Shown: one piece after another, positions 8,057-15,741 of the stretch
How positions within the stretch are numbered: position 1 is the stretch's first letter
Layout: each line of letters starts with the position of its first letter
Origin: Dehalococcoidia bacterium
GTDB lineage: Bacteria > Chloroflexota > Dehalococcoidia > UBA3495
Assembly (NCBI GenBank): GCA_030753265.1
Contig: JASMCQ010000014.1
Span: forward strand, 1-16,603
Length of the DNA stretch: 16,603 bases
Reading direction: 5' to 3'
The notes under the pieces: model-generated
Databases searched by the model: none
The model's input: the letters and a program-made list of their open reading frames with translations, nothing else
What the model was told of the DNA's origin: nothing
Translations under genes and position numbers: made by a program

Positions 8057-8086
8057 GTGAGGGGCTTGGCCCCTCACATTGCTTTT
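8057..8086 (+). terminator. hairpin terminator for the TPR lipoprotein gene
   Basis: GTGAGGGGC (8057-8065) and GCCCCTCAC (8069-8077) form a perfect 9-bp stem with loop TTG, followed by ATTGCTTTT (8078-8086). The T-tract is imperfect but the stem is strong and the place is right: 104 nt after the TPR stop and 31 nt before the end of the opposite-strand hydrolase. It may also slow transcription from the other direction. Confidence 0.65.
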
Positions 8087-10476: not shown

Positions 10477-10497
10477 GGTTAATCACGGTGATTAACC
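10477..10497. promoter_or_regulatory. 21-bp inverted repeat, probable operator in front of the amidase
   Basis: GGTTAATCAC (10477-10486) and GTGATTAACC (10488-10497) are perfect 10-bp inverted arms around a single G. The AT-rich core in otherwise GC-rich DNA and the tight symmetry point to a dimeric helix-turn-helix regulator. It lies 50 nt upstream of the amidase start and 100 nt after the GatC-like stop. No regulator gene is in the window, and no good minus-strand -35/-10 pair overlaps it. The gap around it also contains CTACCCGG twice on the plus strand (within 10506-10528). Confidence 0.65.
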
Positions 10498-11121: not shown

Positions 11122-12198
11122 ATGCTCTGCCCGTCCTGCGGCCAGGAAAACCCTGAAGACTCGAAGTTCTGCGGCCAATGCGGCAGTTCCCTTGCCGCGG
11201 AGCATCCGTGTCCCACCTGCGGCCACCTCAATCCCCCGGACCTGCGATTTTGCCGAGGCTGCGGCACCTCCTGGGGTGCGGCTGACAAACCGGTTTCTTT
11301 TCCCGGCACTGAGCGCAGTGGGAAGGGCGCCATCCATCCCACATCCTTCGCCAACGGGCGCTACCAGGTCCGAGATTTTCTCGGTGAGGGTGGCAAGAAG
11401 AAAGTGTACCGGGCCCACGACGGCATCCTGGACCGCGATGTGGCCCTGGCGGTCATCAAGGCCGAAGGTTTGGATGAGACATCCAGGGCCCGCGTTATCA
11501 GGGAAGCCCAGGCAATGGGCCGTTTGGGCGACCACCCGAACATCCTCCAGATCCACGACCTGGGTGAAGAACAGGGCCAACCCTACCTGATCTTGCCGTT
11601 GATGCCGGGTGGTGCTGTCGACGGGCTTATTGGGGACGCTCCCGATCACCGCATCGGCCTGGAGCGGGCGCTGTCCATCGCCAAAGGACTGTGCGGCGGC
11701 CTGGGGTTTGCCCATTCCCGGGGAGTCGTCCATCGGGACCTGAAGCCGGGGAACATTTGGCTGACGGCAGACGGTACCGCCAAGATCGGCGATTTCGGCC
11801 TGGCGGTGGTGCTGGACTACTCCCGCATCACCACTGAGGGCATGATGGTGGGCACGGTGGCGTACATGCCGCCGGAGCAGGCCATGGGCGGCGAAGTGAC
11901 CCCGCAGTCCGACCTGTACTCGCTGGGGGCCATGCTGTACGAGATGATTACCGGGAGGCCGCCGTTCCTTGGAGATGATCCGGTGGCCATCATTGGCCAG
12001 CACATCAACACGCCCCCGGTGGCCCCCACTTGGCATAATGGACAATGCCCGCGTCCCTTTGAAGCGTTGATTCTCCGGCTCTTGGCCAAAGACCCATCGG
12101 ACCGGCCGGGGTCGGCCGCTGACGTGCTCGCAGCCCTGGAGGGGATTGATCTGGGGGCAGATGTAGGGGCCACAGTATGCGGCGCCCCTACAAGATGA
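11122..12198 (+). CDS. double zinc ribbon-Ser/Thr protein kinase (N-terminal piece of the broken gene)
   Basis: A 358-residue open frame. Two CxxC zinc ribbons (C3/C6/C17/C20 and C30/C33/C44/C47) precede a Hanks-type kinase domain (about 81-340). Seen: HRDLKPGN (204-211), DFG (224-226), the MPPEQ activation-segment end (249-253), and SDLYSLGAMLYEMITG (263-278). Two odd points: the glycine loop reads GEGGKKKV (88-95) rather than GxGxxGxV, and the strand-3 lysine is not in the usual VAxK place (VALAVIK, K113, two residues late). I recall close relatives sharing these, so they may be a family trait rather than decay. The frame ends at 12198 inside a palindromic insertion region; the last ten or so residues are not native. 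It may be expressed alone as a soluble kinase. Confidence 0.85.
   Translation: MLCPSCGQENPEDSKFCGQCGSSLAAEHPCPTCGHLNPPDLRFCRGCGTSWGAADKPVSFPGTERSGKGAIHPTSFANGRYQVRDFLGEGGKKKVYRAHDGILDRDVALAVIKAEGLDETSRARVIREAQAMGRLGDHPNILQIHDLGEEQGQPYLILPLMPGGAVDGLIGDAPDHRIGLERALSIAKGLCGGLGFAHSRGVVHRDLKPGNIWLTADGTAKIGDFGLAVVLDYSRITTEGMMVGTVAYMPPEQAMGGEVTPQSDLYSLGAMLYEMITGRPPFLGDDPVAIIGQHINTPPVAPTWHNGQCPRPFEALILRLLAKDPSDRPGSAADVLAALEGIDLGADVGATVCGAPTR
12159..12197. mobile_element. palindromic mini-element inserted in the kinase-ATPase linker
   Basis: TGTAGGGGC (12162-12170) and GCCCCTACA (12184-12192) are perfect 9-bp inverted arms around a 13-nt loop. AGATG occurs directly on both sides (12159-12163 and 12193-12197), consistent with a target duplication. 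Deleting one 34-bp unit leaves CTG GGG GCA GAT GAC ACC CAC, which joins the kinase frame to the downstream frame (LGADDTHALDRLAGGVFVGRQ) without a break. Arms of the GTAGGGGC type belong to short palindromic repeats that I recall as scattered in many bacterial genomes. I found no second full copy in this window. Confidence 0.7.
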
Positions 12199-12444
12199 CA
12201 CCCACGCTCTGGACCGCCTGGCCGGGGGCGTTTTCGTGGGACGGCAGCAGGAGATGGGTGAGCTGAAGGCGGCCCTGGAAGACGCGTTGTCGGGCCGGGG
12301 GCGGCTGGTGATGCTGGTGGGGGAGCCGGGCATCGGCAAGACCGCACGGCCCAGGAGCTGGCCACCAATGCTGGACTGCGCGGCGCCCAGGTGCTGTGGG
12401 GCCGCTGCTACGAGGAGGCGGGAACGCCTCCCTACTGGCCCTGA
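12199..12444 (+). pseudogene. P-loop segment of the AAA ATPase, split over two frames
   Basis: In frame 2 the sequence reads DDTHALDRLAGGVFVGRQ, then QEMGELKAALEDALSGRG, then LVMLVGEPGIGKT, with Walker A encoded around 12323-12342. From about 12343 the sensible reading moves to frame 1 and continues AQELATNAGLRGAQVLWGR, then CYEEAGTPPYWP, ending at the TGA at 12442-12444. The shift is explained by one lost C (ACCGC for ACCCGC). The Walker A motif is thus cut off from the rest of the ATPase. A GTG at 12236 opens a frame to 12502, but its C-terminal half is nonsense-like (Arg/Pro/Cys rich) and it has no clear ribosome-binding site. Confidence 0.75.
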
Positions 12445-15400
12445 GTGCAGGCGATTCGGTCCTACGTCCGGGACCGGGATCCGGAGCAGGTGCGGTCGGT
12501 GATGGGGTCTGGGGCAGCCAACATCGCCGAGATAGTTTCAGACGTAAGTGAGCGGCTGCCGGGCTTGGGGAGGCCACCAGCCCTGGAGCCGGACCAGGGA
12601 CGGTTTCGCTTGTTCGACTCCATTGCGGCTTTCTTGAAGACCGCGAGCCAGCGGCAGCCATTGGTCCTGATGCTGGACGACCTGCATTGGGCCGACAAGC
12701 CCTCTTTGCTATTGCTGGAGTTCCTGGCTCGTGAATTGGCTGGAGCCCGGCTGCTGGTGATCGGCACCTACCGGGACATGGAGCTTAATCGCCAGCACCC
12801 GCTGGCTGAGACCCTGGGCGGGCTGAACCGGGAGCGGCTATTCCAACGAGTGCTGCTGCGGGGCTTGGCTCAGCAGGATGTGGGGCGCTTTATCGAGATA
12901 GCTGCCGGGATCACGCCTCCCGGAGGCTTGGTGGAGGCGGTGCACGCCCACACCGAGAGCAACCCCTTGTTCGTGACCGAGGTGGTCCGGCTGTTGGTCC
13001 AGGAAGGAGAGCTTACGCCGGAGCGGTTGGGCAAGAGGGGGTCGTGGCGCTTTCGGATACCCGAAGGGGTGCGGGAGGTGATCGGGCGGCGGCTCAACCG
13101 GCTATCCCAAAGGTGCAACGAGACTCTGACCATTGCCTCGGTTATCGGCCGGCAGTTCGAATTCAGGCAGCTGGCGCCCCTGGTCGAGGATATGTCTGAC
13201 GACCGCCTTTTGGGAGTGCTGGAGGAGGCGCTGGGGGCGCGAGTGATTGAGGAGCCTCCCCAGACCGTCGGCCGCTACCAGTTCACCCACGCCCTGGTCC
13301 AGGATACTCTGGCCCAAGAGTTGTCCACCACCCGGCGGGTGCGGCTCCACGCCCGCATTGCCCAAGCCCTGGAGGAGCTGTACGGCGAGGATGCGGGGGT
13401 CCACGCTGGGGAGTTGGCCCGGCACTTTGCCGAGGCCCAGACGGTGCTGGGCACTGAAAAGCTGGTGCGATACTCCCTGCTGGCCGGGGAGCGCGCGTTG
13501 GCTGCCTTTGCCTACGAGAGGGCGCTGGGGCACTTCCAGCGGGCGCTGGCCGCCAAGGAAGGGCAGCCTGTTGACGCCGAGACGGCGGCACTGCTGGTTG
13601 GTCTCGGCCGTTCCCAGATGGCGCTTCTGGACGATGAAGCATACTCCACCCTCCGCCGGGCTTTGGACTACTATGCTGATTCCGGAGACTTGGAACAGGT
13701 AGTGGCCATCGCGGAGTTCCCGGACTATGGGGCAGCGAGGCGTATCGGACTGGGGCAACTCGTCGCTCGGGCTCTACCTCTCGTCCCGGCGGATTCGTTG
13801 CAGTCAGGCCGGCTGCTGTCACGCTATGGGCAATTCATCGGCTTGCAAGATGCCGCCTTCGACGAAGCCCTTGACGCACTGAACCAGGCCATCGTCATCT
13901 CACGACGTGAAGGAGATGAGGCCCTGGAGTTGCAAAGTTTGGTAGCGCTCGCTTCCGTGTACTCCAATCACATGCGATATGACGAAGCCCTGGATAGCGG
14001 CCTCCAGGCGATCGAGTTGACCAAGCGTGTACCCGATCCCCGTTCGGAGGTGTCTGCCCTTTACTTCGTGGTAACCTGCCTGATCGAAAAAGGTGAGTTG
14101 GAGGCGGCCAAGCGCCATGCGTCGGAGATGCTGCCGCCGGCAGAACAGTTGCGTGACCGGTTCTGGCTGGAGGGCGCTTTTGGGAAGAACGCGATGACGT
14201 TGCGTCTCGCCGGAGAGTGGGAGATGGCGCGGTCGTTTAGCCAACGCACTTTGGAGATAGGGTCACGTCCTTTCCATTCGTGGGTTGAACTAGCTCTGAT
14301 TGAACACGAAACAGGGGACCATCATCAGGGCAACCTCCACTTGGATTTGCTGTCAAAGGCTTCTGATGAAGCGAGAGAATCCGCATTCATGAATACATCC
14401 GTTTCCGGCCGTATGGCGTTGATAGCGCCATTAGTCGGCAGGATTACCGGGGTAGTGGGTCATTTAGAGTCCGCCAAGAATGCTGCTGAGCGTGTTCTGG
14501 GATATGCCCAGGCCACTCCACTCGCAGCCGGGTACTCTAACGCTGGTCTGGCCATGATAGCGGTTCTATCGGGTGACGCCGATTTGGCCGGGAAGCAATA
14601 CGCCGCGATCAAACCATGGCGGCACACATTCTCGCTTTTCGTGATTTCCGCTGACCGTCTCTTGGGCCTGTTGGCTCAGATCATGGGGAAGCTCGATCAG
14701 GCGATCATCCACTTCGACGACGCCTTGATCTTCTGCCGTAAAGGGGGTTACCGGCCCGAGCTGGCCTGGACCTGCTGTGACTATGCCGACGTGCTAAGAG
14801 TCCGCGATACGGAGGGTGACCGCGCCAAAGCCATCGCTCTGCTAGACGAGTCCCTGGCCATCTCCAGCAACCTGGGCATGCGGCCCTTGATGGAACGAGT
14901 CCTGGCTCGCAAGCTGGAGCTACAAGGTGTAGCATCGGTGGACATCAGGACTTCCATTGACGCGGTGGCCTTAGCAGTATCCATAGAACGACCCGACCTG
15001 CGCCACCATTCGGCCCCTGACGGCACCGTCACCATCCTGTTCAGCGATATTGAAGGCTTCACCCCCCATGACCGAGCGGCTGGGAGATCAGCGGGCGCAA
15101 CAGGTGCTGCGGGAGCACAACGCCATCGTCCGGCACCAGGTGGCGGCCCACCGGGGGTTCGAGGCGAAGTCCCTGGGCGACGGCTTCATGCTGGCTTTCT
15201 CATCAGCCCGCCGTGCTTTGCAATGCTCAATCGCCATCCAGCAGGCCTTTGCCGCCCACAATCGAGAGCACCCGGATGGGCTCGTGATGGTCCGCATTGG
15301 AATGCACACCGGGGAGTTCGTCCGGGAAATGGAGGACTTCTTTGGCAAGAACGTAATCCTGGCGTCGCGCATCGCGGACCAGGCCCGAGGCGGGGAGATC

Positions 15401-15741
15401 CTGGTGTCGGCGCTGCTCAAAGAACTGACGGAGAGTGCCGGAGACATCCGGTTCGGGCAAGAACGGGAGGTCGAGCTGAAGGGACTGGCCGGGGTGAACC
15501 GGGTGCACGCGGTGGACTGGAACTAGTCCGGGCTCATCGAAATGCCCTTCAACCTGGATTGGCCAGGCGAGACAGTCTGTTTTCGTCCATCGCGGACAGG
15601 CGCAATGATCGCCCAATTTCGTACCAGTCTATAATGTATTGTGTAACGTTGAGTCGAAGCGGCCAGACTGCCGGTCCGCGCGGTACCGCGCCCTGGGGCC
15701 GGGGCCTGGGGCTGGCCCAACCCGGATTGTATCGCAATTGA
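12445..15741 (+). CDS. AAA ATPase C-terminal part and TPR region, with frame-shifted tail (middle piece of the broken gene)
   Basis: Open frame of 1,098 codons starting directly after the in-frame TGA. Native content runs from VQAIRSYVRDRD to about residue 873: Walker B LVLMLDDLHWAD (73-84), the sensor-like LLVIGTYRDMEL (103-114), a winged-helix-like stretch ending in YQFTHALVQDTLAQEL, helical TPR-type repeats (about 345-840), and the first cyclase strand TVTILFSDIEGFTP near residue 860-873. After the C6 run at 15062 the frame is wrong: the final 220 or so residues are Gly/Pro/Arg-rich and resemble no protein. The piece lacks Walker A, so it should not work as an ATPase. No ribosome-binding site precedes 12445, so it is probably untranslated. 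Confidence 0.75.
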   Translation: MQAIRSYVRDRDPEQVRSVMGSGAANIAEIVSDVSERLPGLGRPPALEPDQGRFRLFDSIAAFLKTASQRQPLVLMLDDLHWADKPSLLLLEFLARELAGARLLVIGTYRDMELNRQHPLAETLGGLNRERLFQRVLLRGLAQQDVGRFIEIAAGITPPGGLVEAVHAHTESNPLFVTEVVRLLVQEGELTPERLGKRGSWRFRIPEGVREVIGRRLNRLSQRCNETLTIASVIGRQFEFRQLAPLVEDMSDDRLLGVLEEALGARVIEEPPQTVGRYQFTHALVQDTLAQELSTTRRVRLHARIAQALEELYGEDAGVHAGELARHFAEAQTVLGTEKLVRYSLLAGERALAAFAYERALGHFQRALAAKEGQPVDAETAALLVGLGRSQMALLDDEAYSTLRRALDYYADSGDLEQVVAIAEFPDYGAARRIGLGQLVARALPLVPADSLQSGRLLSRYGQFIGLQDAAFDEALDALNQAIVISRREGDEALELQSLVALASVYSNHMRYDEALDSGLQAIELTKRVPDPRSEVSALYFVVTCLIEKGELEAAKRHASEMLPPAEQLRDRFWLEGAFGKNAMTLRLAGEWEMARSFSQRTLEIGSRPFHSWVELALIEHETGDHHQGNLHLDLLSKASDEARESAFMNTSVSGRMALIAPLVGRITGVVGHLESAKNAAERVLGYAQATPLAAGYSNAGLAMIAVLSGDADLAGKQYAAIKPWRHTFSLFVISADRLLGLLAQIMGKLDQAIIHFDDALIFCRKGGYRPELAWTCCDYADVLRVRDTEGDRAKAIALLDESLAISSNLGMRPLMERVLARKLELQGVASVDIRTSIDAVALAVSIERPDLRHHSAPDGTVTILFSDIEGFTPHDRAAGRSAGATGAAGAQRHRPAPGGGPPGVRGEVPGRRLHAGFLISPPCFAMLNRHPAGLCRPQSRAPGWARDGPHWNAHRGVRPGNGGLLWQERNPGVAHRGPGPRRGDPGVGAAQRTDGECRRHPVRARTGGRAEGTGRGEPGARGGLELVRAHRNALQPGLARRDSLFSSIADRRNDRPISYQSIMYCVTLSRSGQTAGPRGTAPWGRGLGLAQPGLYRN
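15068..15526 (+). CDS. class III adenylate/guanylate cyclase catalytic domain (C-terminal piece of the broken gene)
   Basis: Frame beginning at an internal ATG (MTERLGDQRAQQVLREHN) and running 152 residues to HAVDWN. Seen: AKSLGDGFMLAF with the second metal-binding Asp, VRIGMHTGEF, FFGKNVILASRIADQARGGEILVS with the conserved Arg, and the ELKGLAGVNRVHAVDW end common to these cyclases. The first metal Asp (FSDIEGF) is encoded upstream in the other frame (15041-15060), so the domain is split by the extra C in 15062-15067. With five Cs it would be continuous. Cyclases of this kind make cAMP or cGMP; the split domain lacks a metal ligand and should be inactive unless the frameshift is an error. 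Confidence 0.8.
   Translation: MTERLGDQRAQQVLREHNAIVRHQVAAHRGFEAKSLGDGFMLAFSSARRALQCSIAIQQAFAAHNREHPDGLVMVRIGMHTGEFVREMEDFFGKNVILASRIADQARGGEILVSALLKELTESAGDIRFGQEREVELKGLAGVNRVHAVDWN

Follow-up and report, generated by a model that had tools for sequence, protein, structure and literature searches.

A REP-like palindrome at the kinase–ATPase linker of a probably decaying Chloroflexota gene

A REP-like repeat most likely resides in the tolerant linker of a decaying kinase–ATPase gene in the window (the whole 16,603-nucleotide stretch of DNA analysed here), and a transposon caught in the act of breaking that gene is an unlikely description of it. We assign a probability of roughly 0.8 to a reading in which a dispersed, REP-like palindrome once lay in frame in this linker and the frame change inside it is a small length change that arose during decay of a multiply damaged gene. 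The host protein appears to be a PknK-like signalling protein that joins a Ser/Thr kinase to an AAA ATPase, with its best matches in SAR202-type Chloroflexota. The features of the gene and of its palindrome are collected in Table 1.

Table 1. Coordinates of the palindrome, its flanking motifs and the pieces and lesions of the gene in the window.
Feature	Position	Strand	Basis or remark
Double zinc ribbon and Ser/Thr protein kinase reading frame	11122..12198	+	Ends within linker as ...ADVGATVCGAPTR; Pfam
Left AGATG	12159..12163	+	Overlaps first two palindrome bases; chance level
REP-like palindrome TGTAGGGGC-13 nt-GCCCCTACA	12162..12192	.	Sequence, family search, homologue linkers
Second piece, next frame: most of palindrome, linker, AAA ATPase start	12167..12331	+	Gapless match to P0017 and P0126
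Right AGATG	12193..12197	+	Overlaps kinase-frame stop TGA (12196–12198); chance level
Second lesion: frame reverts at Walker A (GEPGIGK) region	12320..12350 (bounds approximate)	+	Homologue comparison
Third lesion: in-frame TGA	12442..12444	+	Homologue reads PYWPWVQAIR there
ATPase/TPR reading frame	12445..15741	+	ORF shared with cluster P0001 (31 members)
Fourth lesion region and guanylate-cyclase-like domain, shifted frame	15005..15526	+	Lesion absent from cluster P0002

Frame and integrity of the kinase–ATPase gene

The perfect 9-bp inverted repeat that the initial annotation placed at the stop of the kinase frame is present, with its left arm at 12162–12170, its right arm at 12184–12192 and a 29-bp core, GTAGGGGC...GCCCCTAC, at 12163–12191, and the kinase ORF ends 6 nt beyond the palindrome. 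The pentamer AGATG indeed occurs on both sides, the two copies lying 34 bp apart from start to start, and the stretch that follows the palindrome is read in the next frame as described. The cause offered for this frame switch, the gain of a 34-bp unit, is not borne out by the phase of the two arms. At the palindrome the kinase frame reads ...LGADVGA and aligns to DVGA of P0126, and the next frame, starting within the palindrome, reads QYAAPLQDDTHALDRLAGGVFVGRQQEMGELKAALEDALSGRGRLVMLVGEPG and gives a gapless alignment with P0017 (AQHAAPLQDQAHALDSLAGG...) and with P0126, two homologues known at the protein level only, of which P0126 looks frame-shifted near its own C-terminal end. Searched apart, the two pieces of the window meet within the palindrome, as ADVGA in frame 1 and as QYAAPLQDDTHALDRLAGGVFVGR in frame 2, the latter again gapless against P0017 and P0126. 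Since the left arm keeps the kinase phase and the right arm the ATPase phase, the reading frame shifts within the palindrome, and not through a 34-bp gain. The window copy would thus once have been in frame, each arm being phased with its adjoining domain as in homologues that are uninterrupted there, and the present frame change would be a small length change amid decay, accompanied by three other lesions; its putative cause is replication slippage at the hairpin.

The three lesions beyond the palindrome suggest that the gene is a pseudogene, and the arrival of the palindrome probably did not break it, the gene appearing to decay in several places. Downstream of the palindrome, Pfam places AAA_16 and TPR_12 in one ORF and the guanylate cyclase domain in another. 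The fourth lesion, a frame change near 15050, is missing in cluster P0002 (14 member sequences). That difference, together with the presence of four lesions within one gene, would also fit an intact gene whose frame changes are assembly or sequencing errors, but the palindrome-linked stop is common to ENA cluster P0121 (99%, 8 member sequences) and the ORF that begins just after the TGA recurs in NCBI cluster P0001 (31), although the members of both clusters may not be independent, and we consider such errors an improbable explanation.

Homologue linkers, the dispersed family and its flanks

By their labels, the 76 related loci come mostly from Chloroflexota MAGs and in a few cases from Deltaproteobacteria, Acidobacteria or Myxococcales. 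The three highest-ranking relatives in the genome collection are all contigs of a single SAR202 MAG. In SAR202 Io17-Chloro-G2, the four paralogues L001, L002, L003 and L040 carry a perfect-armed 29-bp palindrome at the kinase–ATPase linker, in frame, where it is read as VGAGLKPAPT or VGAGFKPAPT; a fifth paralogue of this genome (P0011) is without such a linker. Degenerate palindromes occupy the same linker in L005 and L036 at the DNA level. That the same kind of element stands in frame across the linker of these four paralogues is what the initial annotation itself had named as speaking against its proposal of an element caught breaking a gene, and, together with the three other lesions, it tells against that proposal.

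At the protein level, 34 of the 156 deduplicated linkers were VGA-type by a loose pattern, and two that had been wrongly so labelled (P0073 and P0199) were reset to none before tree building, leaving 32 and the window; such protein-level classes rest on the pattern, the DNA having been seen for the loci only. The calls for P0079, P0130, P0144, P0224 and P0235 are loose, and P0043 was kept in the palindrome-less class despite a VGA-like linker. The comparison shows the linker to tolerate palindromes in frame, which it hosts repeatedly and which are read as VGA... and then PL or APT. The protein most like the window among the matches listed (P0123, 85% over the kinase) and the nearest rows of the window in the tree (P0138 and P0176) are scored palindrome-less, and we therefore infer in-frame residence in the close lineage of the window from more distant homologues.

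A second palindromic family was also observed at this place. In L041 (827–907), a CCCCCTTTGGTAAAGGGGGA palindrome fills the same linker position at the DNA level, and the family CCCCCTT...AAGGGGGA occupies it in other homologues (P0030, P0044 and others; DNA for L041). This second family is dispersed in the same genomes as the first, and its pattern is repeated in 9 of the 10 genomes tested, with up to 58 forward matches, although its backwards control was non-empty, with between 1 and 4 matches on a strand for 6 of the 10.

An inverted repeat of this size is by itself unremarkable. Perfect 9-bp arms with a spacer of 3–20 nt occur four times in the window as compared with 2.3 expected in first-order Markov sequence, and at least one perfect 9-bp inverted repeat arose in 85% of 300 first-order Markov simulations of the window; rarity of the inverted repeat was rejected as proof for this reason. 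The palindrome stands above chance because of its sequence, that is, the arms of a dispersed family, and not because of the inverted repeat alone. Two further perfect inverted repeats lie at 8057–8077 and 10477–10497 of the window, one between convergent ORFs (terminator-like) and the other upstream of an amidase ORF (GGTTAATCACGGTGATTAACC, operator-like).

Membership of the window palindrome in a gene-less, REP-like dispersed palindrome family is supported. The pattern GTAGGGGC-N{4,24}-GCCCCTAC is present in 14 of 24 genomes, hand-picked among the genomes of the 76 related loci, with 0 copies in the other ten; copies per genome reach a maximum of 82, with 26 in SAR202 Io17-Chloro-G2 (1.6 Mb) and 23, 21, 14 and 13 in others. 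By comparison, the pattern read backwards gave 0 matches in 21 of the 24 genomes and one in each of three. Members measure 23–38 bp at 121 distinct sites, the window included (the pattern allows 20–40 bp). The arms and the GTAG/CTAC pairing are fixed by the search pattern, whereas the interior is free to vary, and it does so (AGGTTT-N-AAACCT, ACGGCATGCCGT, GCAGCATGCTGC and TCCCGAT...ATCGGGA) while remaining mostly self-complementary over the 121 sites (659 of 801 interior pairs). The interior of the window copy is poorly self-complementary, with one of six interior pairs, and its predicted RNA fold reaches –16.1 kcal/mol as compared with –24.7 and –26.6 kcal/mol for two homologue copies. A search of Rfam at the gathering threshold returned 0 matches. 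The literature matches listed for the exact palindrome arms are unrelated by title, and we do not claim the family as undescribed. In one genome, two contigs (L188 and L190) terminate at a palindrome to within at most one base, and assemblies may break at these repeats.

Copies of the family lie mostly outside genes. Among the 120 non-window sites, 116 are outside frames that stay open for 300 nt to either side, in a sample that held all 26 Io17-Chloro-G2 copies and only part of those from other genomes, and in which flanks were ~500 nt for most sites (shorter at contig ends) and copies near gene ends were scored non-genic. In Io17-Chloro-G2, four of the 26 copies sit in frames that remain open for 300 nt or more in each direction, and every one of these is a kinase–ATPase linker; the same four linker copies, from one gene family, are the genic copies among all 120 sites. 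The Io17-Chloro-G2 figure is the fair one, because L001–L003 and L040 had been sampled for being relatives of the kinase.

The AGATG pair, which had been taken for a target duplication, does not exceed chance for the family. Flanking direct repeats of 3, 4, 5 and 6 bp occur, in any tested register, at 83, 37, 8 and 2 of the 121 sites, as compared with permuted means of 85, 33, 8.1 and 2.0, and target duplication was rejected as a family trait on the 5-bp count. In the exact register of the AGATG pair, a direct repeat is found at 1 of 121 sites, which is necessarily the window itself. The label of a REP/MITE-like mini-element consequently holds in part: the dispersed REP-like family in 14 of 24 genomes agrees with it, and the target duplication of MITEs does not, such that the family shares with MITEs, as these are described in PMC10969869, the character of a non-coding inverted-repeat mini-element and differs from them in a target duplication that does not exceed chance.

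A recent insertion of a mini transposable element that duplicated AGATG and disrupted a previously intact kinase–ATPase gene would agree with the 34-bp spacing, which matches the observed frame shift, with the existence of a 5-bp direct repeat, with membership of the palindrome in a dispersed family and with closest rows that have no palindrome. It is opposed by the in-frame palindromes at this slot in homologues, by the right half of the palindrome, whose ATPase-frame reading matches homologues, as would be unexpected for a fresh insertion, by direct repeats at chance level over the 121 family sites and by three other lesions in the gene, and we judge it very unlikely. A chance hairpin with no repeat family involved, for which one might cite the 2.3 inverted repeats of such size expected in the window, is practically dismissed, since the arms are exactly those of the family and homologues share the site.

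Immediately beyond the palindrome, inverted symmetry of 4 bp or more was observed at 10 of the 121 sites, as compared with a mean of 1.5 and a maximum of 7 in 1000 permutations. It spans 4–9 bp (sites L182, L164, L167, L106, L139 and five others), and these copies look as if set mid-way in older palindromes, indicating that some copies lie within, or have grown into, longer palindromes.

Comparison with known palindromic repeats

GTAG REPs are short (20–40 bp), high-copy palindromes with a GTAG end that are mostly intergenic, with some inside ORFs, and their hosts include Chloroflexi (Di Nocera et al. 2013, PMC3733652). The family described here agrees with them in size and copy number (23–38 bp, up to 82 copies) and in being mostly extragenic. 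Its differences concern pairing, location and gene association. The GTAG tag of GTAG REPs is unpaired as described in that article, whereas here GTAG pairs with CTAC within the stem, a pairing that fold prediction gives for the window copy and for two homologue copies and that is imposed elsewhere by the search pattern. At roughly one recB position, X. campestris and X. oryzae carry distinct REPs (PMC3733652); here, one linker of one protein family is occupied repeatedly.

The association with RAYT genes appears weak in the present family. Y1_Tnp (PF01797) exceeds the cut-off in 7 of the 24 genomes, namely 3 of the 6 that carry 10 or more copies and 4 of the remaining 18, and in neither the 26-copy nor the 23-copy genome, which are draft MAGs. 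The rank correlation of PF01797 with copy number (0.54, p 0.006, n = 24) is uncorrected for relatedness and at most hints at a link to REP transposases; the search with PF01797 identified no transposase whose ends match. The family may have spread through single-strand transposition, with a REP-type transposase as the candidate enzyme, or through conversion between copies.

Palindromic elements of Rickettsia, of ~150 bp, lie in frame within unrelated protein-coding genes (PMC10969869). In-frame residence inside protein-coding genes is common to both systems as described there, but the elements here are shorter than 40 bp and the sampled genic copies (4 of 120) are all in one linker. Palindromes as short as these generally lie outside genes, and frequent in-frame residence has been described for Rickettsia (PMC10969869). 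The repeated occupancy of one linker is the part worth following.

Turnover of the linker

Rows for a comparison of linkers were taken from the best 120 of 4721 and the best 120 of 5348 proteins together with the 76 loci, 156 remaining after filtering, to which the window was added; rows left out for too little kinase or no anchor include P0042, P0112 and P0116. A tree of these 157 rows was built from the kinase and ATPase parts with the linker removed. On it, the GTAG class (33 rows) requires 21 parsimony changes, a weak count because 76 of the 153 inner branches are open, and the firmer figure is the 7 changes forced by well-supported branches. The second class (19 rows) requires 15 changes, of which 2 are forced. 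Labels of both classes are clustered beyond shuffling, with a shuffled mean of 30.2 and none of 500 shuffles as low as 21 for the GTAG class, and a shuffled mean of 18.3 and 3 of 500 as low as 15 for the second class, indicating that inheritance plays a part. The numbers of changes would likewise be inflated by any recombination among paralogues. In addition, palindrome-less linkers (for example, VEQPAAGVDEAHALD) could be decayed palindromes of one old insertion, in which case gains become losses.

Relative to the nearest palindrome-less row, linker length differs by a median of 2 residues in the GTAG class (range –1 to 6; 32 rows) and likewise by a median of 2 residues in the second class (range 2 to 9; 19 rows); a 28–38-bp palindrome would encode ~9–12 residues. 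From these sequence comparisons, turnover of the linker looks like replacement more than addition. One may go further and picture the linker as an exchangeable cassette slot, in which at least two palindromic families (the GTAGGGGC type and the CCCCCTT...AAGGGGGA type) take the place of the whole linker, keeping the frame and nearly keeping the length, by hairpin-driven gene conversion or swapping transposition, giving rapid turnover of the kinase–ATPase joint; we put this forward as a tentative and rather doubtful model. A single linker that is reoccupied between very similar flanks at near-constant length would be suited to asking whether such repeats are inserted or replace what was there, and would also let one ask whether repeats reshape proteins at their joints.

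The eight closest pairs listed per class are 92–97% identical outside the linker. In one comparison, that of P0030 with L029, the kinase–ATPase flanks are 96.6% identical and the linker looks wholly different, that of P0030 being 2 residues longer.
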